DNA of 64,000 bases, taken from the NCBI RefSeq assembly GCF_021654455.1, contig NZ_AP024276.1, positions 1,426,001 through 1,490,000 of the forward strand. The letters are read 5' to 3'. The translations under genes were made by a program, and so were the position numbers. The DNA comes from Streptococcus parasuis (lineage in GTDB: Bacteria > Bacillota > Bacilli > Lactobacillales > Streptococcaceae). This document shows, piece after piece, positions 27,641-45,783 of this stretch; the first letter of the stretch is position 1, and every line of letters begins with the position of its first letter. The notes beneath the pieces were generated by a model. That model was not told where the DNA came from. It ran no database searches and saw nothing but the letters and a program-made list of their open reading frames with translations.

Positions 27641-28931
27641 TTATGTTACTCTATAAGTGAAGCTTACGGGAGCCTGGCTTTTTATCTTTCTTTGGAAGGT
27701 TCGATTGGGTCGAATAATGGATAAATGCTTAGCAATGTAGGTTTCTAATTGGAAGGAAGTTGGTTCTTCTCTAAGAAATTTTCGACAGGCATAAACAGAG
27801 TCTGAAAAACAAATTTTATAAGTCTGTTTTAACTTTGATGTTTTAATGGTAACGTGTGAGGTTAGCCATTTACAAACATTAAAATTGATAAAGCGAGCGT
27901 AGATTTCTTGGAGAATTCCTTCCTTCTTTTTCGCATGAAAATGAGTCAACCCAATACTGTATTTTAGGTCACGAAAACTGGTATCTATGCCCCATCTGTA
28001 GGCATAGAGATTTTTTAATTTTTCTGGTGAATAATCCGTATTTGTCACCAAAGTTTCAAAGAAACCTGGCTTGATTTCGAGGCGCACCATCCGAAAATGA
28101 AGGTCATAAAAACTGATTGGATCACTTTTTCGACTAGAGTTTGGTAAAAAGTCAAAGGAAGCATTATGAGGTAAAAAATGATACTGATTAGGGAAGTCTC
28201 GATACAGTTCTTTCATGTCATTGGTTTGTTTGCGACAGATGTTTAGGTCAAATGCCTCATCAAAACAAGGAGTATCAGGGAGACGAAAACTCTTTTTCAT
28301 CGAATTATTTCCCTCGCGAATACGAATAATATACGACCAATTTTTCTCCTGGCAATGCGCCATGACATCGTAGGATTCATACCCCCTATCCATTATCACC
28401 AGAGCTTGTTCAAAAGGGACAACTCTCCATCATGTCGATGAAAGCCGCACGCTCATCAACCTCCCGATTATCCTGAATTCGTAGGTCATGATAAATCTCT
28501 TGTTCAAGATTGTAGAGAGCATTGATATGAATGAGATTGTAAGGAGTGTGGTGTGGTCCAGTTTGGAACGAGGTTGTTTTATCAGAACGATTTCTTGGTA
28601 GAACCACATCACTACCATCAACAGCTAGGATAGGGAGATCTTTAGAAGTTGGAATTTTAGAAGTAATATTGGCAAACAGGGTTTTAAAAGCTTGATGTTT
28701 GATCCGATATCGTCGTTGGACAAAGGCAGATTGAGTGACTGGCAAATCTAAATCAAGTAGCTCTTTGGCTAAGGCATTACCACCCATGGTCAGTATAGCT
28801 TGAATCATGGTTTTCATCGTTAGCTGACTTTTCCGACTAAAATCTTTTTCAGGATGAAGTACAAACTGGTCGGCAGAGGAAACGATGTCATTGATACTTT
28901 CAAATAAATGAGATTTAATCTGGTCTAGCAT
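27641..28931 (-). pseudogene. IS4-family transposase, frameshifted
   Basis: The N-terminal 173 codons (28931-28410) contain LAVDGSDVVLPRN, a DDE-type first aspartate segment. They end at a TGA within CCC TTT TGA. Removing one T restores the downstream frame (EQALVIMDRGYESYDVMAH), which carries the second aspartate, and then the YREK-like segment YAYRWGIDTSFRDLKYSIG. The most likely cause is a one-base insertion in the T4 run at 28412-28415. The site UUU UGA is also a plausible +1 recoding site, as in prfB, but this is not usual for IS4. Confidence 0.88.
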
Positions 28932-29014
28932 GATTTTTCCCCCTTTATTTTTAGTGTAACATAAAAAACTAATCTACCACAAAATGTGATAGATTAGTTA
29001 ACTTAATGACATTG

Positions 29015-29024
29015 AGCAAATACT
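29015..29024. repeat. Right 10-bp target duplication of the IS4-type element
   Basis: AGCAAATACT, identical to 27500-27509. It overlaps the stop codon of the DUF308 gene without changing it. Confidence 0.92.
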
Positions 29025-30330
29025 AGGATTTTTCTTTGCGATAATAAATGTTCTTTGCAACAACCATACTATGTGGTTTTTCATATTCTTGATCCAGATA
29101 GGTTTGATAGGTGCCAGGGGCGATAAATCCACGAATACCAAGGATATCCGTTCCCGCTTGTCCAATGACGGAATCTGCCAAAAGGACACAATTGGTGGAA
29201 AGGAAGAAATAGGTTTTAAATTTCGATTTTTTAAATTTGAACAATTGAGCGCCAATGATTTTTTTGATACGGTAGGCGTACATTTCAGTTGGTTGACCAT
29301 CTGCAGTTGTTGCTACCTTCTCTGCACTAGGATTCCAAGGAATCAATAATTTATCAATCTCAGCCAACCTTTCTTCAACCGCTTTTTCTTGTTCAGTATT
29401 CAAGGTCAATTGGTAACCAAGCATGGTCATTCCTTCTTGAGTACAAAAACGGATATAAGCATTGCGCTCTGCTTTAAACAAAACACCATCGCCAATTGCA
29501 CCTCCCAAGCGCTCTGAAAGGACATCATAGGAACCGTAGCCATAAACACGACCCTTATAGCTCAAATCAATATGTCCTACTGCTCCAAATCCTTCCTCAC
29601 CGACATGTACAAATACTTCTAGGGAGGGATTACCCACCCACTCTTTATGGGTGTTGTAGATAGACTGAGGAGTCTCTCCTTTGTTATCTGCCAAAAAGTC
29701 ATTAACTCTTTGCAGGGTCAACCTTGGGACTAGGGCAGCGATAAATAAGGGAAGGGTCACACGAAGATGACGCTTGGGACGTTGCTGCTCTACTGCTTCT
29801 TCAAACAATAAACCATCCCGCAAATTAGTCATACCATAGAGGATCAAATAAACACCAATGACCAAGGTCTGTACAACCAATTGTGTACCAGATACAAAAA
29901 GGGAAGCTATCCCCAAGACAGATAACCAAATCCCATCCATCAAAAAACGAAGCCGTGGTTCAACCCGATCTTTTCGATACAAATAATAGGTAATAAAATT
30001 AATCACTGCTGTAAACAACTGGTATATACCAATAAATATCGCCGCAAAATACAGGGGAATCTGAACGGCCAAGTCAATGCTAGCCAGAATACCAAACAAA
30101 ACAGCCTTGCCCACCAAAGCTAAAATACTTTCATTTGACTTCTTCTTTCTGAAGAAAATCATGCTCAATTCATAAAGGGCTAAGAAGAATAACCCAGCGT
30201 GAATAAAACGCAAAATCAACCCAGGAAATTGCCAACCAGCAATCAGAAAACCAATACCTATGATGACTAGAATCAGCGCCTCACCAACCAGCTTTCGACC
30301 CGTTAAACCTAAATCACTTATCTTTTTCAT
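29023..30330 (-). CDS. DUF308 membrane protein with a C-terminal papain-like (permuted NlpC/LRAT-like?) domain
   Basis: This 435-residue protein starts with six to eight membrane segments of the HdeD/DUF308 type (residues about 15-185), then has a soluble domain of about 240 residues. That domain contains EVFVHVGEEGFGAVGHIDLSY (a GH motif near residue 250) and, about 130 residues later, FFLSTNCVLLADSVIG with an Asn-Cys pair. A His-first, Cys-later order is the pattern of circularly permuted NlpC/P60 (YiiX/YaeF-like) enzymes. The membrane assignment is sure; the enzyme idea is inference. A -10 box ends 6 bases before the ATG and there is no ribosome site. Confidence 0.8.
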   Translation of the reverse strand: MKKISDLGLTGRKLVGEALILVIIGIGFLIAGWQFPGLILRFIHAGLFFLALYELSMIFFRKKKSNESILALVGKAVLFGILASIDLAVQIPLYFAAIFIGIYQLFTAVINFITYYLYRKDRVEPRLRFLMDGIWLSVLGIASLFVSGTQLVVQTLVIGVYLILYGMTNLRDGLLFEEAVEQQRPKRHLRVTLPLFIAALVPRLTLQRVNDFLADNKGETPQSIYNTHKEWVGNPSLEVFVHVGEEGFGAVGHIDLSYKGRVYGYGSYDVLSERLGGAIGDGVLFKAERNAYIRFCTQEGMTMLGYQLTLNTEQEKAVEERLAEIDKLLIPWNPSAEKVATTADGQPTEMYAYRIKKIIGAQLFKFKKSKFKTYFFLSTNCVLLADSVIGQAGTDILGIRGFIAPGTYQTYLDQEYEKPHSMVVAKNIYYRKEKS

Positions 30331-30336
30331 ATGAAG

Positions 30337-30364
30337 ATTATACCATAGTGAGGACTGTAGACAA
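30337..30364 (-). promoter_or_regulatory. Promoter of the DUF308 gene, probably leaderless
   Basis: TTGTCT (30364-30359), 16 bases, TATAAT (30342-30337), then CTTCAT and the ATG. The rest of the 200-base gap up to 30531 holds no gene; an ACTAGAATTCTAGT palindrome is at 30504-30517. Confidence 0.65.
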
Positions 30365-30531
30365 AAAATACAACATTTAACTTCTCTAACCTACAAATGC
30401 AGAACTATTCGTCAACAAGCTACCTCACACATAAAAAACTTGTATAAAATAAAATTGTCCTTCGAATAGGTATAAGCCATAAAAATGAATCCTAATCATA
30501 ATGACTAGAATTCTAGTTTTTACACAAAGAA

Positions 30532-30561
30532 AAGCCATGATTTCAATAGAAATCACGACTT
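30532..30561. terminator. Hairpin terminator at the end of the capsule locus / IS66 remnant
   Basis: 13-bp arms with two wobble pairs (AAGTCGTGATTTC and GAAATCATGGCTT on the minus strand), a 4-base loop, and a TTTTC tail. It overlaps the tnpB stop codon. Confidence 0.65.
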
Positions 30562-30893
30562 TTTGAAACATTTATTTTTGGACTGATAGAAAATCCTTTC
30601 ATGAGCCAGTCCACCTGCTCGGAAGTTAGCGCCTTAACCTCCTCTTCATTGTTTGGCCAGGTCAATTTCCCATTTTCAAAACGTTTATACAATAACCAAA
30701 ATCCCTGTCCATCCCAATAAAGAGCTTTGAATCGATCTTTTCGACCTCCGCAAAAGAGATAGACCTGACCGGAGAAGGGATCCAGATTGAACTGACTTTT
30801 GACAAGGTAGGCGAGAGAATCAATCCCTTGACGCATATCTGTTTTCCCGCAAACCAAGTAGACTTGACCTAAATCACTGAGCCGGATTGTCAT
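30543..30893 (-). CDS. tnpB: IS66 family accessory protein TnpB
   Basis: This 116-residue protein is a full-length IS66 Orf2: VYLVCGKTDMRQGIDSLAYLV, VYLFCGGRKDRFKALYWDGQGFWLLYKR, and the usual C-terminal GFSISPKI...SRDFY. It overlaps tnpA by 20 bases. The DDE transposase gene (tnpC) that should follow is absent, so the element cannot move by itself. Confidence 0.93.
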   Translation of the reverse strand: MTIRLSDLGQVYLVCGKTDMRQGIDSLAYLVKSQFNLDPFSGQVYLFCGGRKDRFKALYWDGQGFWLLYKRFENGKLTWPNNEEEVKALTSEQVDWLMKGFSISPKINVSKSRDFY

Positions 30894-31142: not shown

Positions 31143-31797
31143 GATACAAATGCATACCCCCCCAAGAAAACAGCGTTTTTCTTGACACATGTAACAGTTT
31201 GTCATCATATTTTTTCAGATAAAGCGTAGAATAATAAATCATCACAAAAAAGAAAAGTTCACTTTTTATTCCAGCATTATAATCTATAAAAGAACCAATA
31301 ATCCAACTCACAATTTCAAGCGAAAACAAAAGAAAAATGAGGTTTCCAAGAAAGTGTTCATTCATTTTTTCTTGCAAGATTTTTATAAAAGGCAAAAAGG
31401 CTAAAAACCATAAATATGCTACTGCATATCCATGAGAAGCACCAAGCATAGGAAGGATTGATCCGACAATCATTTTTATGGATAGTAAACCATTCCATCC
31501 ACTTCCTACAAGAGTTGCTAACATCATTACAATATTATAAAATAAAACCTCCATCCAAACTTTCCAGAATCTCTTGCTTTTTACATTTGCATTGGTTAAA
31601 AAATAACTGCTAATAACCATAAAGACTACATAGCACATTTTTCCTAATGGAGCAAAAATCAGAGAAAAACGTTGCACAAATATATTTTCATTTAGGTATA
31701 GATTCCCATGAATCGTAAAGTGATGAGCAACCAAGCACATCATACATAAAATTCTTAATAATTCAATATTGCTTTTTCTCTTTGTTGTGATGTTCAT
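31143..31797 (-). pseudogene. Membrane acyltransferase (acyltransferase 3 family), truncated by IS66
   Basis: Residues 1-218 of an OAT/acyltransferase-3 protein remain: IELLRILCMMCLVAHHFTIHG at the N-terminus with the family histidine pair, then six or so membrane segments. It ends in SWGGMHLY at the IS66 terminus; about a third of the protein is missing. The frame runs on into tnpA. The full protein would have O-acetylated the capsule sugar. Its start overlaps the end of the preceding acyltransferase gene by 35 bases. Confidence 0.85.
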
Positions 31798-32791
31798 TTC
31801 TTCCCCCGGTAAATATGATATTAACTACTGTAGGCAGTCTTCTAATAATCAAATTCAAGCAAAACCCTATTGTAACAATCAGCACTGTTTCGAGAAGTAT
31901 CATGAAAATCAAGCTACTGTATTTTCCAAAATGAACATTTTCCTTATTAAGCACAGCAAGCATTACTATAATTATTCCCTCATGTATTGAATATACTATA
32001 AACATATCATTTTTAATTATCGAATCAGCCTTCAATGTAAAATTAGGAAGAACATTCCATAATGACAATGTGCATAAATATAATAGTAGTGTTGTAATAA
32101 CATTATCGCCTAAAATCGTGGAACTTAATAAACATATCATCGATATAATTCCTGGTATAACTGTACTATGCCTACCAAGCTCAATTGATTTATGCTTTGA
32201 ACAATATACACCATATAAGAATGGCGGTGCCATTCTTAATGTTCTTTCAACCCACCAGTCATACGGAAAGCTGATCAATGAATAAATCACAGCATGGTGA
32301 TACACTGCTGCAACAAATGTCAATATAATAATTAGCCATTCAAGTTTTGTTGATAGCCGAGGCCACAGACTCATACAAATTGAGGAAATTGCCAAAAACA
32401 TATATAAAACAAAAATATACCATAACGGTCCATCAAAAGGTGTCAATGTATATCCTAAAATAATCGTTCTAATATTGGGCAATCCATTTTGGAAAATATA
32501 AAGGCCGATATAAATCGTATTCCAAGCAATATAAGGAACAATAAGTGTCATTAATCGTTTTTTTAATTTATCTCTACAAGATTTTTCAGACACATAAAAC
32601 TTATATGCAGAAACAGCAAAAAAATAATTTAACGCAATTGACCCAAATGTTTCAAAAAACGGTCTTATGTACCCCCCCCTATTAAAATCTGACAATTCAA
32701 TTAAATGAGGAGCCAAGTGGTAGACAACTATTAGAATAGTCATCCAAAAAGAATAAAAAATCATTTTGTCTTTATTTTTATTTTTTAACAA
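31763..32791 (-). CDS. Membrane acyltransferase (acyltransferase 3 family)
   Basis: This 342-residue membrane protein has about ten hydrophobic segments. The N-terminal ILIVVYHLAPHL carries the family histidine, and AYKFYVSEK...LKKRLMTLIVPYIAWN is the arginine-containing segment of the OAT family. It probably adds acetyl groups to the capsular repeat unit. The start is a TTG at 32791 with GGGGGAG 9 bases upstream; an ATG at 32764 lacks a ribosome site. It follows the flippase gene by 15 bases. Confidence 0.85.
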   Translation of the reverse strand: MLKNKNKDKMIFYSFWMTILIVVYHLAPHLIELSDFNRGGYIRPFFETFGSIALNYFFAVSAYKFYVSEKSCRDKLKKRLMTLIVPYIAWNTIYIGLYIFQNGLPNIRTIILGYTLTPFDGPLWYIFVLYMFLAISSICMSLWPRLSTKLEWLIIILTFVAAVYHHAVIYSLISFPYDWWVERTLRMAPPFLYGVYCSKHKSIELGRHSTVIPGIISMICLLSSTILGDNVITTLLLYLCTLSLWNVLPNFTLKADSIIKNDMFIVYSIHEGIIIVMLAVLNKENVHFGKYSSLIFMILLETVLIVTIGFCLNLIIRRLPTVVNIIFTGGRNEHHNKEKKQY

Positions 32792-32806: not shown

Positions 32807-34348
32807 CTACTTTCTTATCAATTTGAGTTTTATAATGCTGATTATCTCTTGTTTCTCCTGCTTGCTAAAAACGAGAATAAATTCCAATATATACCCAATC
32901 AAACCTGCTATCATTATATTGATGAAAAAGCTGATCCAATTTTGGAAATCCATAAAATTTTTCATTACAGAGAAAACAACACATACAACGACTAAAGATA
33001 CCCAGGATTTAAATTCTGTTTTCCAAAACGTCCATATAGGTCGATGCAGTAATTTTGCTGCACACGCCGGAACAACAACTCCATGCGTAAACCCTAAAAT
33101 TACCGTGCTCGTTCCTGCTATAGCATAAACACCTAATCCAGTATATTTCAGAAGTATTAAGGTAGTTGCAATACTGATTATACTTGAAACGAGCAGTACA
33201 ACTGAATATATCCTAACTTTATCAATAGCAATAAATATAGAATGAATGCTGTACATATATGTGCTGATAATAATATCCAAAAGTACTAAGATCATAAGGA
33301 TATATATTTCTACGAACTGTGTTTCTGTATAACTCGTGTCACTCAACCATAGCTTCAAAAAAACATATCCAAACACAATAATACCAGCATATGGAACGGT
33401 GAAAAACATCGTCAATATTTTCAGCTGACTATTGGCTTCATCAATAAGTTTGTTGTTGCCTTCTGACGCAAAAACTTTCGTTAGGGCTGAAGAGAAAATA
33501 TTTGAAAACACTCCTAAGGCATTACTTAACGCCAAAGGGATTTGCTTAGCCAAAGAAAGACGCCCCATTATAGCACTACTAATGAACCAGTTGCTAAACA
33601 AAAGATCCAATCCGTTTAGTAACAAATTGCTTGTATTAGATATCAATACCCAAAAACCCGACTTCAACAATACTTTTAGTTTACTGAAATCAAAATAACT
33701 TTTATCTATATCAAAATCTACGAACAATTTTTTTGTAACTTTATAATTTCCCCAAAGAGTCACAAGACCTGCAATAAGCGTTGCCAAACTCAAGTAATAA
33801 ACCTTTGCCGGAAAAAAAGAGAAAAGGCTAAATATTAGTATGCATTTAATTACATTCGATATTATTTGCACAATCGAATTATAGTGCATTTCTCCCGTTG
33901 TAAATGCTGCAGCCGTATACACCGTGCCTATTAGAGATGTTCCCATATTTACAAAACTTAATAAAAATGTCAGTTTAACTTGAAACACCAATGCTGCTGT
34001 GATATTCACAATATATTTCAATTTCCAAACAAATAAAATCGAAACAATCAATATTAGCCCATACAAAAAGCAATTTGCAATAAAGACAGAGCAAAAATAT
34101 GATTTTGCCTTTTCTTTGTTGCCGGAATTATATTCTACCGATATATATCTACTAGCCATTGAATTAATTGCGACGGAAACAAGACTGGCATACGAAACGA
34201 AATTATTAGCTAGATTTATAAATCCGTATGCCTCTTCTCCTAATTTTCCTACGACAAAAGGGGACAGCCAAAAGCTAATAAACATCTGAACCCCTAATGT
34301 AATAAGTGCAGCAAATATATTTATTAACGTCGTTCTTTTATTATTCAT
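32807..34348 (-). CDS. wzx: Capsular polysaccharide flippase (Wzx, MATE/MOP superfamily)
   Basis: This 513-residue protein has 12-14 membrane segments and the oligosaccharide-flippase N-terminus (NIFAALITLGVQMFISFWLSPFVVGKLGEEAYGF). It moves undecaprenyl-linked repeat units across the membrane. The ATG at 34348 follows GAGGAAATAAGTG; a GTG just before is an alternative. It overlaps the GT6 gene end by 8 bases. Confidence 0.92.
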   Translation of the reverse strand: MNNKRTTLINIFAALITLGVQMFISFWLSPFVVGKLGEEAYGFINLANNFVSYASLVSVAINSMASRYISVEYNSGNKEKAKSYFCSVFIANCFLYGLILIVSILFVWKLKYIVNITAALVFQVKLTFLLSFVNMGTSLIGTVYTAAAFTTGEMHYNSIVQIISNVIKCILIFSLFSFFPAKVYYLSLATLIAGLVTLWGNYKVTKKLFVDFDIDKSYFDFSKLKVLLKSGFWVLISNTSNLLLNGLDLLFSNWFISSAIMGRLSLAKQIPLALSNALGVFSNIFSSALTKVFASEGNNKLIDEANSQLKILTMFFTVPYAGIIVFGYVFLKLWLSDTSYTETQFVEIYILMILVLLDIIISTYMYSIHSIFIAIDKVRIYSVVLLVSSIISIATTLILLKYTGLGVYAIAGTSTVILGFTHGVVVPACAAKLLHRPIWTFWKTEFKSWVSLVVVCVVFSVMKNFMDFQNWISFFINIMIAGLIGYILEFILVFSKQEKQEIISIIKLKLIRK

Positions 34349-35195
34349 CACTTATTTCCTCAATATGAGTTCCTGAGATAGTATCTATCAAATACATAAA
34401 TCTTTCTTTCAATAACAGTTTTCTTTTTAAAATACCTAAAGATTTTCTTACAACATTTTGTCTCTTGGAATACTGGCCTTTAAAGGATTTAACATCAAAT
34501 TTTGCCTGTTTACTTACAGCATATATTTTCTTCGGATATGAAACTTCCATGCCACAGGGATAGCAATACATTGGCTCTAATATACGAACACCCGATTTAT
34601 TAACAATATATCTATTTAACTGTGATTCATCATGCCATTTTGCAATAATGTTCTTTTTTAAATCTTCCTCAATATTATGTTTGAGCGTTTTTGACATCTT
34701 AATAAAAGCATCACTCGTACCACAGAACAACGCACCAATTACATAATTTTTTCCACAATTCCACGGTATATATGCCGTAGAACTTTTTCTTCTTTCAAAA
34801 GGAAATTCTATTACACTTTTTCCATAATATCCCGGATGTGAAGTCACCGATAACACTTCATTTTTTCTTGGTAAAAATTCTTCCGGTGTGATAATCTCAT
34901 TACAAATCATGTTTGCATTCGAAAACATGAGATAATCACATTTTTTCAGTTCATCTTCTATCTTCAAAAATGTTGAAAATCTAAAAAGCGTAATAAGCGG
35001 CCAAGGCATTGGCTCAATCTCAATTTTTTTTACATTTAGATTGTTCTCGACAAAGATTTCCTCGGCATCCGTAAAGACATAATATCTTTTCTCATAGCCG
35101 GGTAAAAAATTCTTTTCAAATGACTCATAGAAGTCCTTCCAAAATAAGACATATGGTCCTGTACATATATATAATATTCCAATGCTTTTTGTCAT
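34341..35195 (-). CDS. GT6-family glycosyltransferase (ABO blood-group transferase-like)
   Basis: This 284-residue protein aligns by eye with the human ABO/alpha-1,3-galactosyltransferase core: YYVFTDAE near residue 40, the donor-site motif NAN (residues near 94) in place of DVD, the segment HPGYYG...FERRKSSTAYIP, the specificity segment VIGALFCG, and KWHDESQLNRYI near residue 190. NxN instead of DxD is the known hallmark of metal-independent bacterial GT6 enzymes. The Ala in IGA occupies the position that is Ala in the B transferase and Gly in the A transferase, hinting at galactose as donor sugar. The ATG at 35195 is 6 bases after GAGGA. Confidence 0.93.
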   Translation of the reverse strand: MTKSIGILYICTGPYVLFWKDFYESFEKNFLPGYEKRYYVFTDAEEIFVENNLNVKKIEIEPMPWPLITLFRFSTFLKIEDELKKCDYLMFSNANMICNEIITPEEFLPRKNEVLSVTSHPGYYGKSVIEFPFERRKSSTAYIPWNCGKNYVIGALFCGTSDAFIKMSKTLKHNIEEDLKKNIIAKWHDESQLNRYIVNKSGVRILEPMYCYPCGMEVSYPKKIYAVSKQAKFDVKSFKGQYSKRQNVVRKSLGILKRKLLLKERFMYLIDTISGTHIEEISDE

Positions 35196-35213
35196 AAACA
35201 TTCCTCACATTCT

Positions 35214-36146
35214 CTATACTTCAATTAAATGCCAGCTATCCTCATATAAGTCAAGTGGCATATCAACCGACATCCATTTGGAAGGAGCAACAACAATTTT
35301 TTTATCTGCTTTAGATAAATACTGTGCCCACCAACCAAATGTAGTATTCCCTATAATAAAATTCTTACACTCACTCATTGCTGCAAGCGACACATAGACC
35401 GGTTTGCTTTTATCCTGAACTACATAGTCATATTTTGAAGCGTCAATTAAATGCTCCAATACATAATCTACATTATCCGAGCAAATAAAGAACAGCGGAT
35501 TATCAACATTTTTTATTACATATTGAATGGCTTCTTCCCAATATTTCATTGAACACACGTCGTACATAGAACTTCCAACATTATGCTCAACCTTTACGCT
35601 TATACAAACACTGTTTCGTTCACGCAATTTGTAAAGACCCGGATATTTATCATAATCAGGAAATTGTGTCCCATCAAACAAAGTCAGTAAATCTGCTTTA
35701 ATTTCATTAAAATATTTTTGTGACTGGAAATATCCCTCAATATAAATTGGCTTTTTTATATTTAAATGCTGTTCCATATACCCATTTTCACAAAAGAAAA
35801 GTCCTGATTTATTAAAGAATGGATTTAATTTGCTTTCCATCTTGAACTTATCCATATAATTTTTTTTTCGTGTTAAAACTCGGTATATTTTTCTAAGAAA
35901 GTATTGTTTTGACATCACAAAACGATTTTCAAGAATGCTTTCATGTATATATTCCACATTCGGCAAATCATAATACATTAAGGAATTTTCCCAATTGCAT
36001 CGGATAATATCAGAATCATCCATTATAATTGTGGGATTATTAGGCATTTCTAATTGTAGCTTTCTTGCAAATGCGTATTGAAAAAGCTGATTTCCAATTC
36101 TTCCTTGCAATGGCAAATAAATTTTATTTTTCTCCATTTTTTTCAT
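35214..36146 (-). CDS. GT11-family glycosyltransferase (alpha-1,2-fucosyltransferase family), atypical motif I
   Basis: This 310-residue protein has the GT11 N-terminus GRIGNQLFQYAFARKLQLE and the C-terminal signature FIIGNTTFGWWAQYLS, with FFICSDN between. The usual HxRRGDY motif, whose arginine contacts GDP-fucose, is replaced by VKVEHNV at about residues 188-194. So either the donor differs or activity is reduced. In family terms it adds fucose alpha-1,2 to galactose, making the H-type acceptor that GT6 enzymes act on; its position just before the GT6 gene fits that. It overlaps the acetyltransferase gene by 23 bases. Confidence 0.87.
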   Translation of the reverse strand: MKKMEKNKIYLPLQGRIGNQLFQYAFARKLQLEMPNNPTIIMDDSDIIRCNWENSLMYYDLPNVEYIHESILENRFVMSKQYFLRKIYRVLTRKKNYMDKFKMESKLNPFFNKSGLFFCENGYMEQHLNIKKPIYIEGYFQSQKYFNEIKADLLTLFDGTQFPDYDKYPGLYKLRERNSVCISVKVEHNVGSSMYDVCSMKYWEEAIQYVIKNVDNPLFFICSDNVDYVLEHLIDASKYDYVVQDKSKPVYVSLAAMSECKNFIIGNTTFGWWAQYLSKADKKIVVAPSKWMSVDMPLDLYEDSWHLIEV

Positions 36147-36756
36147 TATATTTTTCCCATCTTTTCGATTCGAAATTATATACTTTTAATACTTTTGCAG
36201 GATTACCTGCTGCTATAGAATAACTTGGTATAGATTTTGTAACCACTGATCCTGCTCCGATTATGCATTTCTTTCCAATAGAAACACCGGACACGATACA
36301 AACCTTTTCCCCTATCCAGGAACCCTCACCAATAGACACATCCTTTGCTGTTAATTCTTGATCCATGTATGGCACTGAGCTCTCAGGATTCATTCCGTGA
36401 TTTTCGTTTGTTACAATAACATTTGAGGCAAATAATACATTATCTTCTATAGTTATATTAGCTTTGGATGAAGCTAATGCTGAAAATCCAAAGCCAATAT
36501 AACAATTGTTTCCAATTGTTATATTGGCTTTAATGCTATCATTGCCATAAACCGAAAGACGACTATTATTTAGTATGGTAGTACCATTCCCAATTTCAAT
36601 ATTTCGGCATCCTGACAACTGTAAATAAGGCCTAGCAATTATAGAATTTTCCCCAAATTTTCTAAACCTCTTTTTGGAACCATAACCGATCTCTTGCTTA
36701 CAAATAATGACACATTTTATATAATGCCAAATTTTCTGCAATTTTTTATATAACAT
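36124..36756 (-). CDS. Left-handed beta-helix O-acetyltransferase
   Basis: This 210-residue protein shows hexapeptide repeats (IEIGNGTTI, ITIGNNCYIGFG, VSIGEGSWIGEKVCIVSGVSIGKKCIIGAGSVV) ending in the SIAAGNPAKVLK motif of maltose/galactoside O-acetyltransferase-like enzymes. An NHG motif supplies the catalytic histidine. It likely acetylates a sugar of the repeat unit or its precursor. Start at ATG 36756 after AAGGGA; the longer frame lacks a ribosome site. Confidence 0.88.
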   Translation of the reverse strand: MLYKKLQKIWHYIKCVIICKQEIGYGSKKRFRKFGENSIIARPYLQLSGCRNIEIGNGTTILNNSRLSVYGNDSIKANITIGNNCYIGFGFSALASSKANITIEDNVLFASNVIVTNENHGMNPESSVPYMDQELTAKDVSIGEGSWIGEKVCIVSGVSIGKKCIIGAGSVVTKSIPSYSIAAGNPAKVLKVYNFESKRWEKYNEKNGEK

Positions 36757-36767
36757 ATCCAATCCCT

Positions 36768-37607
36768 TTATTTTGATTTTCTGTTTTCCATGATAATTTT
36801 TATTTTTGCATCGTCCCCCCAAACAGCCTTACTATCATAAGGACGATCCGGGAATTTACCATAATCAAGTTTAATATTATAATTATTTTCTCTGATAAAT
36901 CTTTCTACTCGGTCAGCCAACTTCTCAGGTCTTCCATGACATATATTTATAATGCCAACAACTTCATTTTGTACAATTGCCGCCGATACTTGTTGCGAAA
37001 ATTCATTATAGTCAATAAAATCCCATTGATTTTGTCCTGATGTAAATGGAAACAGTTTTTTCCCTTCTTTTTCAGCTGCCGTTATCTTTGAAAAAATTGA
37101 GCATCCATGCTCTGTATTACCGACAATATAATATCCCCTGAGCCACTGAAAAATAACCTTATGATTTTTACAGATTAACTTTGTCATGTTGCGTAACGCA
37201 TCTTTTGATATACCATATAAGCTTTCGGGATTAGTAGGTGTATCTTCCTTTATACTTCCCTCAAAAAAACCTACTTCATGCATAGATCCTAACACTGCAA
37301 TTTTTTTCACACCGTTTGCTGCCATTTTTTCTAAAAAATTATAATGCTTTGGCAAATCCATAACATGTGAAGTATCATTATGTACAAAACCATTTCTCCA
37401 TGCCAGGTGCAACAAAATGTCCGGACTTTCAAATTCACAAAATGGATCATCTACTGAAAAAATATCACACTTAACAACCTTGGCACGTTTATCAATTTCT
37501 TCTGAATCATGATGACAAACAGCAATCACTTCATTCCCGTCATCACACAACTGTTTTACAATTCCAGTCCCCAAATAGCCATTGGCTCCTGTAACTACTA
37601 TTTTCAT
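36768..37607 (-). CDS. NAD-dependent epimerase/dehydratase family protein
   Basis: This 279-residue short-chain dehydrogenase has the GxxGxxG motif TGANGYLGTGIV (residues 5-16) and YGISKDALR with the catalytic Tyr and Lys near 135. The shorter C-terminal part is like reductases or epimerases acting on 4-keto-6-deoxy sugars. Exact substrate not clear; a role in making a 6-deoxyhexose donor for the capsule is inferred from position. The ATG at 37607 follows GTGGAGG. Confidence 0.85.
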   Translation of the reverse strand: MKIVVTGANGYLGTGIVKQLCDDGNEVIAVCHHDSEEIDKRAKVVKCDIFSVDDPFCEFESPDILLHLAWRNGFVHNDTSHVMDLPKHYNFLEKMAANGVKKIAVLGSMHEVGFFEGSIKEDTPTNPESLYGISKDALRNMTKLICKNHKVIFQWLRGYYIVGNTEHGCSIFSKITAAEKEGKKLFPFTSGQNQWDFIDYNEFSQQVSAAIVQNEVVGIINICHGRPEKLADRVERFIRENNYNIKLDYGKFPDRPYDSKAVWGDDAKIKIIMENRKSK

Positions 37608-37653: not shown

Positions 37654-38547
37654 TTATACAAAATTTCTTATCTTTAAACATACTTTTTCAATTCCCAAAT
37701 AGTATGTATTGATATTCCCACACAATTTAACGAAATCAACAATGTTTGGAGAAGTTTTAATTCTTTTTTTTATTTTCTGAAATTTTTCATACTCTGCAAT
37801 TTCACGATAATATAAATCAGAATTTAAATAATCCCGTATTTCTTGTTCTGTAACCCCTGTTTTTCTATTTTCGGATATAAATCTTCTTAAAATATACTGT
37901 TCAACCTTGTTACTATTTGAAACACTATCTGATCTGATTCTGTATTTCAAAATAAAATCATTAACATTTCCCAATTTAAAATGATTTTGCACAGATCGGC
38001 AAACAAAATCATAATCCTCACATCTGGGGACATCACGATATCCATTTAATTTAGTATATACTTCTTTTCTTACCAACCAAGTTGGGTGAGGAATACAGTT
38101 TCCCCATTTCAAAAAATGTTTAATTAAATACTGCTTGTATGGAAAATGCAATTTAGAAATATAATTTCCATTCTCATCAATTAAGCATACGCTTCCACCG
38201 ACTAAATCAAGATTATTTTTATCCAAATATTCTTTTTGTAATTTCAATCTATTTACTTCACAAATATCATCCGCATCCATTCTTGCTAAATATTCTCCTT
38301 TGGATTGGCAGATGGCTTTATTTAAACTATTAACAAGACCAATATTCCTGTCATTTTTTATAACACGAATGCGGGGGTCATCAAATGAATAAATAAACGC
38401 ACTTAATTCTTCATTATTTGGATTATCAATCACAATTACAAATTCAATATTGGAATATGTTTGTTTTAAAACCGATTCTATACTTTCTCTTAGTTCGGAA
38501 ACGGATTCATTGTAAGTACTCATTATTACACTTATGAGATCTTCCAT
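37654..38547 (-). CDS. GT2-family glycosyltransferase
   Basis: This 297-residue GT-A protein begins LISVIMSTYNESVSELRESIESVLKQTY, and the DxD motif ARMDADDIC lies near residue 100. Typical size for a capsule glycosyltransferase adding a hexose. AAGGAG lies 8 bases before the ATG. It overlaps the polymerase gene by 41 bases. Confidence 0.9.
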   Translation of the reverse strand: MEDLISVIMSTYNESVSELRESIESVLKQTYSNIEFVIVIDNPNNEELSAFIYSFDDPRIRVIKNDRNIGLVNSLNKAICQSKGEYLARMDADDICEVNRLKLQKEYLDKNNLDLVGGSVCLIDENGNYISKLHFPYKQYLIKHFLKWGNCIPHPTWLVRKEVYTKLNGYRDVPRCEDYDFVCRSVQNHFKLGNVNDFILKYRIRSDSVSNSNKVEQYILRRFISENRKTGVTEQEIRDYLNSDLYYREIAEYEKFQKIKKRIKTSPNIVDFVKLCGNINTYYLGIEKVCLKIRNFV

Positions 38548-39673
38548 ATGCACTTCTCCTTCTAAGTCCTTCTATTAAACATTTTTCAGAAATTATTAAG
38601 TATGGCAAGACACTATAGTCAATCAAATCATTATCTATCAGATTACTGCATGCAACTACGATTATTAAAAAAAGAACAAATGTGTTATTTTTATATTTTT
38701 TTGCTACACAATAGATAAGAATACTTAGGAATATTATCATCAATACTCCATACCTTATGATCAAGAATGCATATCCATTATCTATTACAATTTCATTCTC
38801 AAAATATGCTTTATTTGTCATTTTAGGGATTAAACTGATCCCCAAATTTTGAATCATACGCGCAATATACGTAAATCTATAAGAAAGCATATAATCGAGC
38901 ATTCTAAAAAAAGCAACTTTATCCAACATTAATGGTATAAAAACGGAAAATGAAGTCAAAAGAGGAACTATAAGCTTAGCCCCAAAACCAAATATTCTAT
39001 TAATTATTTTCTTAAATCTGCCAGTTTCTATTACTGAATCAATAAACCATTTTCCTAATACTAACAAGAATGTCGTAAATAATGAGTTCCTTGAACCGCA
39101 GAAGTAATAAATTACCAAATCTACAGTTAAAAGTATAAAATAGTGTTTCTTTCTGAATATACCGGTTAACAACCCATATCCAACCAAATAGCTATATATT
39201 AATGGTAATACGTTGCTATGATAAAAGCCTAAAGAATGTCGAGCTACACTGCCAACCCACCTTTTAGTGATTTCGTCATTGTAAATTCCAAAGATTGAAA
39301 ATGTAAAAACACATAAAGTGAAAAATAACAATGTAAAATATGCCACTTTTAATATATCTTTGTCTTCTAATTTATTTGCAAGAAAAGCAAATAAACTGAT
39401 TAGAATAAATATTAATACTCCGGATTTCATTAATACCAAGAGGTCTGCACATAATAAAATTATCACTACTCGGATCTGCTTTTTAGAATATGCTCTAAAC
39501 ATTATTCCAACTGTCAATATAACAAGTGCTATATACTTTGCCGGTATCGTCAACGGATACAGAACATCAGTATTTGATACATCACTATTGAATAGCGAAA
39601 AGACAAATAATACATATGAAATTGAAAAAAGGAGATTGTTTTTGTTTATTTTAGAGCTAATTTTGATTTTCAT
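38507..39673 (-). CDS. wzy: Capsular polysaccharide polymerase (Wzy-like)
   Basis: This 388-residue protein has about 11 membrane segments and a large extracytoplasmic loop (KWFIDSVI...RFTYIARMIQNL region), the general plan of Wzy. Wzy proteins share little sequence; the call rests on topology and on being the only such protein in a cluster that has a Wzx flippase. It would join repeat units on the outer face of the membrane. Confidence 0.8.
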   Translation of the reverse strand: MKIKISSKINKNNLLFSISYVLFVFSLFNSDVSNTDVLYPLTIPAKYIALVILTVGIMFRAYSKKQIRVVIILLCADLLVLMKSGVLIFILISLFAFLANKLEDKDILKVAYFTLLFFTLCVFTFSIFGIYNDEITKRWVGSVARHSLGFYHSNVLPLIYSYLVGYGLLTGIFRKKHYFILLTVDLVIYYFCGSRNSLFTTFLLVLGKWFIDSVIETGRFKKIINRIFGFGAKLIVPLLTSFSVFIPLMLDKVAFFRMLDYMLSYRFTYIARMIQNLGISLIPKMTNKAYFENEIVIDNGYAFLIIRYGVLMIIFLSILIYCVAKKYKNNTFVLFLIIVVACSNLIDNDLIDYSVLPYLIISEKCLIEGLRRRSAYGRSHKCNNEYLQ

Positions 39674-40713
39674 TTACACTTTCCTCTTCCAATTTTGCCC
39701 AAAATATTTTTTATGTGCAAAAGCATACATATGGAAAAATATAATCTGAATTTTAATAGTGTTAATAAATAATAGTGATCCGTTTGCAAATATCCTTTTA
39801 TAGATTTTAAGTAGCTTAATGCGTTATCAACCATCTCATCCTTGCGAATATTGGTAAAATACTCTCTTTGTTGAGTATAGGACTTCCAAACCCCATATCG
39901 TGATTGCGTGATGGCACGTCCCACTGTCTGCATAACTTTTACTGCAAACAATTTTTCAAAATCACATATCTTCCATCTGTTCTTTTGGTTTCTTATTTGC
40001 TCAAGAACTGCCTTAAAGCCAATATAATAATTTTTATCAAATCTGCGGGTCATTCCGCTTCCTATGCGATAATCATAAAGTGCATCGTTCATATAAATAA
40101 ACGATTCTGCTTTATTATATAGTTCAATGCTCTGTAATGAATCCTCACCATTTGAAACTTTATAAAACGATGAATAATCCTTATCAACATCAATGCAACT
40201 TCTTTTATATATTTTTGTACACAAACTTACAACACTATGGTCTTTCAAGAACGTCTCTAAAACACTTTCCTTATCTACTCTTATTTCTGGTTCTACAGAA
40301 AAAATATTTTTATAAGCAATTTTCTTAGAGTCACCCACCATATAATTGTAATTAAATAAAATAACGTCCGGCTCAGTATATTTATTTATTACATTCTTTA
40401 ATTTCAGTAACATACCTGGTTCTAATAAATCATCAGAATCACAATTCACAATATATTCTCCACTGGCCTTCTTAAAACCATATCGCCTAGTCGCTAATAA
40501 TCCTTGATTTTCTTTATGAAAAACTCGAATTAAATCTGGATATTTGTTTTCATAACTATCACAAATACTGCCACTGTTATCTATAGAGCCATCATCGATC
40601 AGAAGAACTTCAAGATCATTATCAATTGCTTTTGACTGTTCTATTATAGAGTTTATACACTCATCTAAATATTTTTCTACGTTGTATACAGGGACAACAA
40701 TACTGAATAGCAT
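39670..40713 (-). CDS. GT2-family glycosyltransferase
   Basis: This 347-residue GT-A protein starts FSIVVPVYNVEKYLDECINSII and has YIVNCDSDDLLEPGML near residue 90 with the DxD motif, then a basic alpha-helical C-terminal part. The ATG at 40713 is used because GGTGA lies just upstream; a GTG four codons earlier is possible. It overlaps wzy by 4 bases. Confidence 0.9.
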   Translation of the reverse strand: MLFSIVVPVYNVEKYLDECINSIIEQSKAIDNDLEVLLIDDGSIDNSGSICDSYENKYPDLIRVFHKENQGLLATRRYGFKKASGEYIVNCDSDDLLEPGMLLKLKNVINKYTEPDVILFNYNYMVGDSKKIAYKNIFSVEPEIRVDKESVLETFLKDHSVVSLCTKIYKRSCIDVDKDYSSFYKVSNGEDSLQSIELYNKAESFIYMNDALYDYRIGSGMTRRFDKNYYIGFKAVLEQIRNQKNRWKICDFEKLFAVKVMQTVGRAITQSRYGVWKSYTQQREYFTNIRKDEMVDNALSYLKSIKGYLQTDHYYLLTLLKFRLYFSICMLLHIKNILGKIGRGKCK

Positions 40714-40733
40714 AAAATTCACCACAATCTTTC

Positions 40734-41705
40734 TTAATCATATAGACCTAAATCAAAAACATATTCATCAACGTATTTTCCACCATTGAGGGCATAGCTG
40801 AATTTAGATCCTTGTGTTATGGAACTAATTAGATATTTACATCTGGAAAGCAGAATCATTTTTACTAAGTATTTCTGTCCACGAAGTTTTTTGTTGTCTT
40901 CCAAGACATTCGATCTGCTTAGAACATCTTTACCATCATAATCATAGATAAATGAATCATATGAAACGATTTTGATGTACTCTCCAAACTTATTTCTTAA
41001 ATCATCATAAACATTTCCATCTTCTGTAACTAAAAAAACAGAAGCATGATATTGTTCAATAAACTTTTCAATTTGCTGTTCCACTTGCTTCACATTTGGC
41101 TGCACATATTCACCGGAAGGACGCAATTTTATATAATCCGTTCCCCTTACATAAACGCCAATACAATTATCTATATCGAGAGCCTTTGCTTCTTTTTCTA
41201 CAAGAGTTAAAACCTCATCACTAAAACATAAATTCTTGTTTAAAAGCTCATAGCTCATTTTTTCAAGTTTTTTATTAAAAAAAATCTCCGATTCAAACAG
41301 TCCCAGTGGATTAACATCTTTTAACGTCCAACCGGACAGATAGACATTTTTACTATTGTAAACTTCCTCTTCTTTAATATCAGAAGGCTGTTCGAAAAAA
41401 TAATTCCAAACATTATTTTTTCCATCATAATACTGCGTCTTATAATTTTTCCAATCTACAAATGGAATGTATCCATTTTTCTTTGCGTATTCTATGTATA
41501 CGACCTGTTTATGAATTAATGATAGTAGCCCTTCCACTCCATCCTGATAATCCGGCTTTATAATATAAATTACTTTATCAGCATTACATTTCCCATAGCT
41601 TTTCTTTTTTTGAAGAATATTCCTTCTTGCTATGAAATAATAAATATATTTTAATTTATATCCTAAAAATCTATGCTTTCTTTGAAATTTCAACCCTACA
41701 GGCAT
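40734..41705 (-). CDS. Putative glycosyltransferase with fucosyltransferase-superfamily motif
   Basis: This 323-residue protein has a basic N-terminus, a central CIGVYVRGTDYIKLRPSGEY (near residue 188) resembling the HxRRTDK/VRGxD donor-binding motif of GT-B fucosyltransferases (GT23 and related), followed by VFLVTEDGNVYDDLRNKFG and the acceptor-side SSITQGSKFSYALNGG. No DxD. I read it as a possible fucosyltransferase or a relative; family not certain. Confidence 0.65.
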   Translation of the reverse strand: MPVGLKFQRKHRFLGYKLKYIYYFIARRNILQKKKSYGKCNADKVIYIIKPDYQDGVEGLLSLIHKQVVYIEYAKKNGYIPFVDWKNYKTQYYDGKNNVWNYFFEQPSDIKEEEVYNSKNVYLSGWTLKDVNPLGLFESEIFFNKKLEKMSYELLNKNLCFSDEVLTLVEKEAKALDIDNCIGVYVRGTDYIKLRPSGEYVQPNVKQVEQQIEKFIEQYHASVFLVTEDGNVYDDLRNKFGEYIKIVSYDSFIYDYDGKDVLSRSNVLEDNKKLRGQKYLVKMILLSRCKYLISSITQGSKFSYALNGGKYVDEYVFDLGLYD

Positions 41706-41708: not shown

Positions 41709-42645
41709 TTAATTCCTTCCGTTTTTTAACCTCACCAAAATTTCATTGATTAACCTCTTATCAATAGTTTCCGAAAATTTCCCAGCAAATAAATTGAGGT
41801 TTTCTCTGCCCCTCCCCCACCAATTTTCGTAATCAACATATCTATGTCCTTCAATCTGTATGTATATGGATTTCCGTTTTTCCCTCTGCTCCAATCAATG
41901 CAGCGAAGATTTGCCGACTGTTTTTCAGCCGGTTGAAAAATATAATCCTTAAAACCACAATTATATGCTATTGTTTGGATAAATAACTCATCCGCACAAT
42001 TTGTATATGAAAATACACTCGTAATTTTATCTTTATTTTCAAGAATAACCTTCACAAGCTCATCTGTAATACTTACCCATTGCGAACCATATTTAATCTG
42101 CCAATCCAAATTTCTGACTCTATTTACGCCAAAAACAATTTGTAAAACCAAAGAAATTCTCTCGCAAAACGTGAAAAAAATGTTCTTCCATTTTTCTGCA
42201 TACCTTCGTCTATAGTTCTGAAGAAAATGATAGTATTTAGATCTTCTGGATATTTCAGGATTTCCTTTTAATGCATCCTCATCATAAAGAATAAATTCCT
42301 TACCCTTGTTTTTCTCAAAAAAAGAATCAATTTCTTCATTGCTTTTAGTGGTAAATCAGCTCCGGAAATAATATGATAATAATCATAACCGTTAGTATAT
42401 GCTTGTTTGAGAAGAAACATTTCTACTTGTACCTGTGAAAATCCTCCCCCATACACTTCAAATTCACGATAAAATTTTAATGATGATTTCGTTACTGAAT
42501 TTCTAAAGTAGGATTCATCGAAATCCTTACTTTTCTTATCGATGTGTACATAAATATCGTGTGCATCGCTATCCAAACAATCTATTAACTTTTTCAGCTA
42601 CCACCAATTATTATGTGCAATAATTAAAAAAGCATGTTTCATCAT
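41709..42645 (-). pseudogene. GT14 (core-2/I-branching type) glycosyltransferase, broken three times
   Basis: The start MMKHAFLIIAHNNWW runs into TAG at 42600-42598, where Gln (CAG) is expected before LKKLIDCLDSDAHDIYVHIDKKS. A second lesion, a missing A in the run at 42343-42346, shifts frame after GADLPLK; the correct continuation is SNEEIDSFFEKNKGKEFILYDED. A third shift lies in the G-rich tract near 41803-41820, before NLNLFAGKFSETIDK. Family homologues add beta-1,6-GlcNAc branches or are related xylosyl- or glucosaminyltransferases. Fragments with their own ATGs are probably not functional. Confidence 0.88.
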
Positions 42646-42666: not shown

Positions 42667-43164
42667 TTATTTCACCAAATCGTCTACTATCTCGTCTAAT
42701 TCACTACAAAACTTTTCATTATTGCTTCTCATACCATGACCCATCTTAGCAACAATCTCATCGTATTTTTTGATCACATCACCAAGTGTACTTATATCCT
42801 CAACCGGGATAATGGTTCCCATTCTCTCTGCAACATTTCTTGCAAATTCCACCTGGTGGTCATTCACATGCTCATCAAACCGGTGTTGACGAGGTACAAC
42901 GATAGGTGTTTTACCGATTTGCAGAGACATGATAAAACTTGCCGGTCCACCGTGTGTAATCACGATTCGTGCATCTTCAACATTTTTTATCATCTGCTGA
43001 TAAGGAATCAGTTTACTCCACTGACAATATTTCGGTTCGTATGTACTGAACCCGGTTTGCATAATGACGTCTTCGGTAATGATTCCGTCTCTTTTTAATT
43101 CATCTACTGTTTTCACAAGCCTGTTAAACGGCTGCTCGTGTGTTCCAACTGTTACAAATATCAT
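42667..43164 (-). CDS. Alg13-like glycosyltransferase subunit (GT28 C-terminal)
   Basis: This 165-residue protein starts MIFVTVGTHEQPFNRLVKTVDEL and has ITHGGPASFIMSLQIGKTPIVVPRQ, the UDP-sugar binding part of GT28. It works together with the preceding Alg14-like protein, as in the Cps14F-Cps14G/EpsE-EpsF pairs that add a second sugar (galactose in known cases) to the lipid-linked first sugar. 10 bases separate the genes. Confidence 0.92.
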   Translation of the reverse strand: MIFVTVGTHEQPFNRLVKTVDELKRDGIITEDVIMQTGFSTYEPKYCQWSKLIPYQQMIKNVEDARIVITHGGPASFIMSLQIGKTPIVVPRQHRFDEHVNDHQVEFARNVAERMGTIIPVEDISTLGDVIKKYDEIVAKMGHGMRSNNEKFCSELDEIVDDLVK

Positions 43165-43174
43165 CTTTTCCCCT

Positions 43175-43651
43175 TTAAAAGATACTACCTAAATTGATAG
43201 CCTTCGGATAAACTTTCTTTTGTTCTTCCCACTGCACAATAAACTTATCTACAATCGGATATACCAACCTGCCGGTTACAGTAGGCTTGTCAATGCGGTC
43301 AAATACTTCTATGTAAATAAGTTTTGCTCCCATCAATTTACCAAGGTAAAAGAATGGAACCGCAACCGCCGCACCGGAAGAAATGATTAAATCCGGTTTT
43401 TCTTTACGCAGCACTTTCCAAGCAATAGCAGTATTCTTTATCAATGCTTTCAGGCTGCGATTGGTAGGATAATAGCAAGGATACATTTTTTCACCCTCTA
43501 GAAGGCTTCTTGCGTCCTCTTTGTCGAATGTAACCCAAAAGCGATTCTTATCCTTCCAGAAAGGCTTCAACATATATAAATGAGTCAAGTGGCCGCCTGA
43601 TGAGCCAACTAAACAGATTTTTAAATTTTCTTTATTTGCTACCTGCTGCAT
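43175..43651 (-). CDS. Alg14-like membrane-anchoring subunit
   Basis: This 158-residue protein has LKICLVGSSGGHLTHLYMLKPFW and PDLIISSGAAVAVPFFYLGKLMGAKLIYIEVFDRI, the Alg14/EpsE pattern. It holds the Alg13-like partner at the membrane. It is the first intact gene of the serotype-specific cassette. No CDS joins it to the upstream broken cpsF. Confidence 0.92.
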   Translation of the reverse strand: MQQVANKENLKICLVGSSGGHLTHLYMLKPFWKDKNRFWVTFDKEDARSLLEGEKMYPCYYPTNRSLKALIKNTAIAWKVLRKEKPDLIISSGAAVAVPFFYLGKLMGAKLIYIEVFDRIDKPTVTGRLVYPIVDKFIVQWEEQKKVYPKAINLGSIF

Positions 43652-43909: not shown

Positions 43910-44368
43910 TCAAGCCGTCAAAACGCTGTATTTATGCGGTGTTTTCTGGTTTAACCATATAATATCTTTCCAGCCATCTGGATTAACAAATAATTGACCT
44001 CCTAATTGATGAATTTCTTTACGATATTTTGAAATAAATGGTCCGATTCGACAAGCTAGAATATAAAAAATAGGTTCTTTATCACTATTTTCTTTTGCAA
44101 TCTCAATTGCTTTTTTTAATGCAGCAATATCATATGCAATTGCTTTAGCTGGACCAATGTTTGGAACATCTATGCTAAAACATGTTGCACCATTATATTC
44201 AAAAAAATCTTCACTAATATTAGATTTCTTTGAATTTTCCCTTGTACATGCCACGAAATACTTAATATTTTCATTTTTTTGATTTTCCGTTAATTTTTCT
44301 ACAAAGGTTTCAAATCCGCCATATTTGGCAGGAATCCCTTTTGATACAATAATATAAACTGTTTTCAT
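43910..44368 (-). pseudogene. CpsF-like glycosyltransferase (DUF1972 N-terminal), truncated
   Basis: Only about 152 residues remain: TVYIIVSKGIPAKYGGFETFVEKL, ATCFSIDVPNIGPAKAIAYDIAALKKAI, LACRIGPFISKYR and VNPDG, the N-terminal domain of a rhamnosyltransferase-like GT. Then comes an unrelated tail KTPHKYSVLTA. Normal proteins are about 380-400 residues, so the whole GT domain is lost. The ATG at 44368 is preceded by AGGAAAA. Confidence 0.8.
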
Positions 44369-44406
44369 ATAACCAAATTTTCCTAACATGTACAAATAAT
44401 AAAAAA

Positions 44407-45783
44407 CTACTTACTTCCCTCTTTTTTAAAAACCACGACGATAGTCTTCAACAATATCTTGATATCCGACCAAATCGACCAGTTATCGATATATTCAACA
44501 TCGAGTTTTACCACCTCGTCAAAGTTGGTAATATTGCTACGACCACTTACCTGCCATAGACCTGTAATTCCTGGCTTGAAGCTGAGGCGACGTTTTTGAC
44601 TTGGTGTATATTTTTCAAATTCATCCACTGTCGGTGGACGTGTACCAACCAAACTCATATCACCAACTAGCACATTATAAAACTGTGGCAATTCATCTAG
44701 ACTTGTTTTTCGGATAAACTGACCAATTGGAGTAATCCGTGGGTCATTATCCATTTTAAACATACCACCCTGCATCTGGTTTTGAGACATAAGTTCTTTT
44801 TTCCGTTCCTCTGCATCAATATACATAGAACGGAATTTATAAAATTTAAAGATCCGTCCGTTTTTTCCTACTCGTTTCTGAACGAAAATGGCCGGTCCTC
44901 CATCTTTCCGAATAATAGGGGCTAAGACAATCCCGACCAGACCACAAATAAGAAGACCAATCACAGCCCCAAAGATATCCAACATGCGCTTTAGAAAGAT
45001 ATGGCTATGTTTGTAGTAATTGGAGTTAAAAGTCACGATGCTATGGTCTCCAACTTGTTTGATTTTTTTATTTTTTAAAGCCCTGAAATCAAATGAGTTA
45101 ATATCTACACTCACATCAATACCCATGACTTCAAAATCAGAAACAAGATGTTTGAGATTGTAATGTTCACTCGGTAAGTTGATAAACACATGATCGACAA
45201 CTTCGTGAGTCGCAAAGTCAATCGCATCATCAAAAGGAATTATTGGGACTCCCTCTGGAAACGCCACTTCACCATCTCCGATGACTACTATACCTGCCAA
45301 ATATTTGGTAGGAAGTTGATCTGACTCAAAGAGCCCCTCCATTAATCGCAATCTCTCAGTTGTAGTAATGACTAATGTATTCTTTTGTTGCTCGGCAGTC
45401 ATAAGGAAGAGGTATTTGTATCTACGCACAGTGCAGTTGATAATGTAAACGATGATAAAGGTAAGAATGGTAAATAAAGCCAACCCACGTCTCGTAATGA
45501 TAAAACTATCTCCCAACAAAAAAGAAAAAGAAATAAGGAGTATGTCGAAAATCAAAACGTACCTAGCGACCCGTTCAAACTCTATTAAGTAGCCTCTACT
45601 CTCAAATTCTGTTGACATTCGAGAGAAATAAAAAGCCACAAAATGCAGGGCCAAAATCAATAGAATCCCTATCTGGTTCATCTTTGAGGTGGGCAATTGG
45701 GTGGTAATGGCAACAGCCACTACTACCCCAATTATTTCTAAAAGCGCCAGTCTAAACTGTCGGTATTCATTAATATTTACCAT
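44407..45783 (-). CDS. cpsE: Undecaprenyl-phosphate sugar-1-phosphate transferase (CpsE/WcaJ type)
   Basis: This 458-residue enzyme starts the capsule repeat by moving a sugar-1-phosphate onto undecaprenyl phosphate. It has five membrane segments, a central CoA-binding-like domain, and the C-terminal bacterial sugar transferase domain: KRMLDIFGAVIGL, FVQKRVGKNGRIFKFYKFRSM, RKTSLDELPQFYNVLVGDMSLVGTRPP, and KPGITGLWQVSGRS. Start at ATG 45783 after AGGAG. Sugar specificity (glucose or galactose) is not evident. Confidence 0.95.
   Translation of the reverse strand: MVNINEYRQFRLALLEIIGVVVAVAITTQLPTSKMNQIGILLILALHFVAFYFSRMSTEFESRGYLIEFERVARYVLIFDILLISFSFLLGDSFIITRRGLALFTILTFIIVYIINCTVRRYKYLFLMTAEQQKNTLVITTTERLRLMEGLFESDQLPTKYLAGIVVIGDGEVAFPEGVPIIPFDDAIDFATHEVVDHVFINLPSEHYNLKHLVSDFEVMGIDVSVDINSFDFRALKNKKIKQVGDHSIVTFNSNYYKHSHIFLKRMLDIFGAVIGLLICGLVGIVLAPIIRKDGGPAIFVQKRVGKNGRIFKFYKFRSMYIDAEERKKELMSQNQMQGGMFKMDNDPRITPIGQFIRKTSLDELPQFYNVLVGDMSLVGTRPPTVDEFEKYTPSQKRRLSFKPGITGLWQVSGRSNITNFDEVVKLDVEYIDNWSIWSDIKILLKTIVVVFKKEGSK

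Follow-up and report, generated by a model that had tools for sequence, protein, structure and literature searches.

An ABO-like GT6 glycosyltransferase beside an altered GT11-clade protein in a capsule locus of Streptococcus parasuis: a candidate blood-group-B-shaped, fucose-free glycan

The closest described counterparts of the genes treated here are the bacterial family 6 glycosyltransferase (GT6) BoGT6a from Bacteroides ovatus (PDB 4AYJ/4CJB), the human ABO transferase GTB of the same family, the canonical bacterial GT11 alpha-1,2-fucosyltransferases, and the 6-deoxy-L-talose pathways of Bifidobacterium longum 35624 (PMC5033381) and Pseudolactococcus laudensis (PMC12599335). The BoGT6a report (PMC3961637) gives UDP-N-acetylgalactosamine as the donor of that enzyme, names its donor and catalytic contact residues, including roles for the equivalents of NXN, Lys231 and Glu192, and describes the bacterial GT6 genes of 2014 as Gram-negative with a single exception. 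This study concerns a GT6 gene and a neighbouring GT11-clade gene in a 64-kb stretch of Streptococcus parasuis (GCF_021654455.1, contig NZ_AP024276.1, positions 1,426,001 to 1,490,000), hereafter the window, together with the genes for a short-chain dehydrogenase/reductase (SDR) and an acetyltransferase in the same cassette. Coordinates are those of the window unless another locus is named, and all genes described from it lie on its reverse (-) strand. We tentatively put forward that the GT11 clade exchanged GDP-fucose for a dTDP-6-deoxysugar as donor while keeping an ABO-type GT6 partner. The result would be a fucose-free, B-shaped glycan made by Lachnospiraceae-type bacteria and, after gene transfer, built into the capsule of a streptococcus.

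The GT6 protein and its described relatives

The GT6 gene (34341-35201) has two in-frame ATG codons, at 35201 and 35195. Since a GTGAGG stretch (35208-35203) lies 7 bases 5' of the second and 1 base 5' of the first, ATG 35195 is the likelier start. The initial annotation had placed an ABO-like GT6 transferase of the NXN (predicted metal-independent) type at 34341-35195, and this assignment was upheld. The protein contains HPGYYG, then FERRKSSTAYIP, then KWHDESQLNRY, in the order described, as well as NAN. Profile PF03414 matched at 112 bits (E 3e-32, cut-off 25), where the annotation had accepted that lack of a GT6 match would refute it, and NCBIfam model NF041524 matched at 264 bits (cut-off 250). 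The best phmmer match in the PDB was BoGT6a (171 bits, E 3e-49), followed by the human ABO transferases (about 86-89 bits, from E 3e-24) and alpha3GalT (about 75 bits, E about 1e-19). The E-values of the GT6 matches, and of the GT11 matches given below, exclude chance.

Residue conservation was counted over 121 aligned rows, that is, the query and the 120 listed matches. NAN stands in place of the DVD of human GTB, and both N95 and N97 occur in 121/121 rows. With these two, ten of the donor and catalytic residues named for BoGT6a are kept, the others being T14 and Y17 (118/121 each), W67 (121/121), R74 and H122 (120/121 each), D191 and E192 (121/121 each) and K231 (119/121). Three of the BoGT6a residues are changed: Asn69, usually to Ile or Val; Thr134, to Pro; and Arg243. 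The NXN motif and the equivalents of Lys231 and Glu192 place the protein in the predicted metal-independent bacterial type of GT6. At the triad equivalent to ABO residues 266-268 it has I-G-A (118, 121 and 119 of the 121 rows), whereas BoGT6a has A-G-G. We take Ala at the 268 equivalent to be the GTB residue and to mark a preference for UDP-galactose, and the window protein, like the other rows that share this Ala, is predicted to be of the B type in its donor. The third place of the triad is never Ala in six more distant GT6 relatives, which carry other triads. Taken together, these features make the metal-free transfer of alpha-galactose the most probable reaction of the enzyme. Its acceptor, unlike that of GTB, is probably not L-fucosyl-galactose.

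Thr134 of BoGT6a binds O6 of the acceptor-site sugar (PMC3961637). A 6-deoxy acceptor was considered from the replacement of this residue by Pro in 121/121 rows, and the argument was dropped because Pro was also present in three of four NXN relatives from outside the listed rows (L051, L054 and L055, the last two beside a canonical GT11); the fourth, L056, has Thr.

The GT11-clade protein and its partnership with GT6

The GT11 clade is the interesting part of the locus. Its window member (35214-36146), directly upstream of the GT6 gene, belongs to family GT11, as initially annotated (PF01531, 77.5 bits, E 1.4e-21, cut-off 23.9), and is predicted to adopt the GT-B fold of the fucosyltransferase superfamily; no match by sequence was found for it in the PDB. 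With the canonical bacterial GT11 alpha-1,2-fucosyltransferases it shares, besides PF01531, the N-terminal G-N-Q and the C-terminal N-S/T-S/T-F-x-W-W, and in several loci GT11 genes of both kinds are found next to GT6 or close to it. It differs from them in the GDP-binding motif H-x-R-R-x-D, which is S-x-K-x-E/Q-H-N in the window clade (S183, K185 and H188 in the window protein), and in position 253, where Asp/Glu is replaced by Ser. H-x-R-R-x-D, taken here as the mark of an alpha-1,2-fucosyltransferase, was present in 0/121 aligned rows of the clade, counted as for GT6, with one of the 120 listed matches (P0121) being the query's own cluster. Single positions were compared using 60 of the 121 clade rows and three more from whole genomes, leaving out 8/48 match rows that were duplicates or came from the window itself; Arg185 was found in 37/37 other GT11s versus Lys in the clade. 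The equivalents of the guanosine-binding His363 and Asp453 of FUT8 are both Ser in the window protein, and that of Arg365 is Lys. Three relatives among the GT11 matches listed carry both a name and a function label, and all three are called alpha-1,2-fucosyltransferase. To our knowledge, the CAZy record of GT11 contains fucosyltransferases only. In a sister clade of altered GT11s (L006, L021, L039 and L047) the guanosine-contact positions are mostly gone, and three members retain RRG[DN].

GT6 was found in 1/284 genomes of the genus, namely the present one. Protein-database searches gave 772 GT6 and 478 GT11 matches (120 of each listed); the named sources among those listed were Oribacterium and [Clostridium] spiroforme for GT6, and Acetatifactor, Oribacterium and Lachnospiraceae for GT11. 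The scan of the genome collection, which reaches close relatives only, gave a single locus (L004, in the Lachnospiraceae metagenome-assembled genome G680), where genes for an acetyltransferase, GT11, a flippase, GT6 and a membrane acyltransferase follow one another consecutively. When contigs of equal size were equated, 28/79 GT6 clusters shared their longest contig with a GT11-clade cluster, where simulation gave an expectation of 0.08, and seven longest contigs were common to GT6, GT11 and the SDR; this comparison covers the longest contig of each cluster and 120 listed clusters each from 772, 478 and 7572 matches.

Such co-occurrence on contigs speaks against the two enzymes modifying different residues of the repeat unit with no joint epitope, an arrangement that we regard as unlikely and that two GT11-clade loci lacking GT6 would fit. 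A canonical H-x-R-R-x-D GT11 adjoins GT6 in Prevotella (L054), Phocaeicola (L055) and cyanophage S-8S56 (L052), and lies near, not beside, it in cyanophage ACG-2014f (L053). Given these canonical pairs, the window pair can be seen as one version of a pairing of GT11 with GT6 that recurs, here with both partners predicted to be altered, GT11 in its nucleotide site and GT6 in its donor triad. The GT6 of both cyanophages is of the DXD type, with epimerase genes in the same stretches, and a search of viral contigs with two peptide patterns gave 19 loci with a best identity of 31%.

Nucleotide-sugar supply and the SDR-acetyltransferase pair

The best match to gmd in the S. parasuis genome scored 62 bits (cut-off 415) and was RmlB (451 bits, cut-off 365); no gene exceeded the gmd cut-off, and no match to fucose pyrophosphorylase (PF07959) was found in this genome. 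GDP-fucose would thus seem not to be available by either of the two routes searched. PF16363 matched RmlB, GalE and RmlD in a scan that did not list the SDR of the cassette and that divergent SDRs can escape. Because these three are present, dTDP-4-keto-6-deoxysugars and UDP-galactose should be available.

The SDR gene (36768-37607) encodes a short protein of 279 amino acids, predicted to be a 4-ketoreductase/epimerase of a nucleotide 6-deoxysugar, for which no NCBIfam equivalog exceeded its cut-off. It is followed by the gene of a WbbJ-like hexapeptide acetyltransferase (36124-36771; 121 bits with the WbbJ model, under its cut-off of 243). Both occur together with a GT11-clade gene in three loci: the window, L050, and L049, where a flippase gene intervenes. 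The SDR was found in 30/299 genomes of the family of G680 at E 1e-60 and in 8/284 genomes of the genus at E 1e-30, the present genome included. Twenty SDR regions (L099-L118) were inspected, comprising 12 of the 33 places from the family of G680 and all 8 places of the genus outside the present genome; the acetyltransferase was present in 15/20 (as the next gene in 11, separated by a single gene in 3, more distant in 1) and the GT11 clade in 0/20. The SDR and acetyltransferase therefore form a pair of their own that has come together with the GT11 clade. One region (L113) holds another GT11, of the canonical H-x-R-R-x-D kind (8884-9798), which adjoins the same kind of SDR in a genome (G794) with no gmd over the cut-off.

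Similar combinations of a dTDP-rhamnose-branch reductase and an acetyltransferase are reported from B. longum 35624 and P. laudensis, with which the window was compared by description only. PMC5033381 links such reductases with dTDP-D-fucose or dTDP-6-deoxy-L-talose, and acetyltransferases with 6-deoxytalose. PMC12599335 explains the 6-deoxy-L-talan of Pseudolactococcus by a dTDP-6-deoxy-L-talose dehydrogenase; the P. laudensis acetyltransferase is of the membrane OafA type there, versus WbbJ-like in the window. Since CapD-type (PF02719) dehydratases lie near the SDR in 3/8 SDR loci of the genus (L099, L101 and L102; the eight come from seven other genomes), the SDR product may instead be a UDP-amino-sugar. 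Another of the eight loci (L100) contains a 601-amino-acid frame that may be a further candidate. A dehydratase of this type also lies near the SDR and acetyltransferase in L109.

The initial annotation suggested that the GT11 protein transfers fucose and that GT6 may make a histo-blood-group-like epitope on the fucosylated galactose. Neither claim was borne out: the H-x-R-R-x-D motif and the guanosine-contact positions are gone, neither of the two GDP-fucose routes searched was found in the S. parasuis genome, and a fucosylated blood-group epitope is unlikely overall, although the GT6 is ABO-like. We hold it to be highly improbable that the GT11 protein is an alpha-1,2-fucosyltransferase after all and that GT6 builds a true A/B antigen. 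Such an antigen would agree with the recurrence of canonical GT11-GT6 pairs (L052-L055) and with BoGT6a, which forms an A-type product on 2'-fucosyllactose (PMC3961637). It would also agree with gmd scoring over its cut-off in all 3/3 other sampled genomes where the GT11 clade was found (G680, G819 and G987), in each case on another contig than the clade gene or 50 kb from it. Gmd was present in 25/31 genomes with other GT11s, in 15/50 without a GT11 match and in 0/1 for the present genome, as counted in 34 of 50 GT11-matching and 50 of 298 non-matching genomes, with the 31 other-GT11 genomes assigned by score, four without a locus read. The genomes of the sister clade are mixed, gmd being absent in G594 and G777 and present in G820 and G913.

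On its face, this survey leans against a dTDP-6-deoxysugar made by the SDR. The same direction is indicated by G680, in which no SDR relative was found at E 1e-60; the contig carrying its GT11 gene breaks off some 0.3 kb upstream of the acetyltransferase, and the SDR gene may have been lost in the gap or be absent. The three gmd-bearing genomes and G680 make the SDR-derived donor slightly less likely, and slightly favour another possibility, namely that the GT11-clade enzyme takes dTDP-L-rhamnose (or another donor) directly and that the SDR and acetyltransferase serve a different residue. This we consider rather doubtful. In its favour, RmlB and RmlD are present, and the SDR is separable from the clade, as seen in the 20 further SDR regions and in G680; yet the SDR and acetyltransferase share a cassette with the clade in all three loci that are not cut off upstream (window, L049 and L050).

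The capsule locus and the proposed product

The capsule context given in the initial annotation was confirmed, and the locus is predicted to be of the Wzy type. An initial sugar transferase, CpsB/CapC, a capsule-kinase-type P-loop ATPase and Wzz are encoded at 44407-48048, a Wzx-like flippase at 32807-34351, and a probable Wzy polymerase at 38507-39673, the last being hydrophobic by eye and without a match in Pfam or NCBIfam. GT2 glycosyltransferases lie at 37654-38553 and 39670-40725. The protein of 40734-41705 is weakly FUT8-like (18.7 bits, under the cut-off of 27.6), contains VRGTDY and is a second fucosyltransferase-superfamily-like protein of the locus. A GT28 C-terminal-type and Alg14-type pair (42667-43651) resembles, as we take it, the two-part streptococcal beta-galactosyltransferases. 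A membrane acyltransferase (Acyl_transf_3, 31763-32791) has a counterpart adjoining the GT6 of L004. The GC content is 0.29-0.34 at 31-43 kb versus 0.36-0.46 at 19-27 kb and 0.40-0.46 at 46-56 kb. Rfam and tRNA scans of the window gave no match, and megablast found no plasmid records near the cassette.

Parts of the locus suggest damage. The Core-2/I-branching gene looks interrupted, with one piece at 41750-42151 and another at 42268-42576 that each match a different part of the profile; a DUF1972 open reading frame (43910-44395) of only 161 amino acids is perhaps the remnant of what we recall as a longer capsule transferase; and IS4/DDE transposase pieces and IS66 Orf2 occupy the downstream end (27641-30893). 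That the locus is decaying, with no capsule made and the pair without a present role in this strain, nevertheless strikes us as quite improbable, given that the reading frames of GT6, GT11, SDR, acetyltransferase and Wzx-like flippase are all open and that the 90%-identity GT11 cluster containing the window gene (P0121) has 381 member sequences.

It appears possible, at a little under an even chance, that the SDR, the acetyltransferase, the GT11-clade enzyme and GT6 form a capsule module, probably acquired by transfer, that makes a blood-group-B-shaped glycan free of fucose. RmlB and RmlC, the latter presumed present, would supply a dTDP-4-keto-6-deoxysugar, and its reduction by the SDR would give dTDP-6-deoxy-L-talose or dTDP-D-fucose. 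Presumably no longer recognising guanine, the GT11-clade enzyme would transfer the sugar from this dTDP donor to the repeat unit under construction. O-acetylation of the 6-deoxysugar would fall to the WbbJ-like enzyme, and GT6 would add alpha-galactose from UDP-galactose with no need for a metal. Such a glycan would be built like blood group B, with an alpha-galactose and a 6-deoxyhexose branch, and contain no L-fucose.

In line with the initial annotation, no described streptococcal capsule of this kind was found in the literature searched, which was limited to open-licence papers; for Streptococcus suis capsular polysaccharide, no report of glycosyltransferase family 6, with or without a fucosyltransferase, and none of 6-deoxytalose was found there. 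The capsule may look like a blood-group structure and yet not be one, and an alpha-galactose-capped capsule, if real, would bear on natural anti-Gal antibodies. If the GT11 clade uses another donor, current predictions wrongly assign fucose to the glycans of such loci, and the pair would be a natural experiment on the change of nucleotide-sugar donor inside one glycosyltransferase family.
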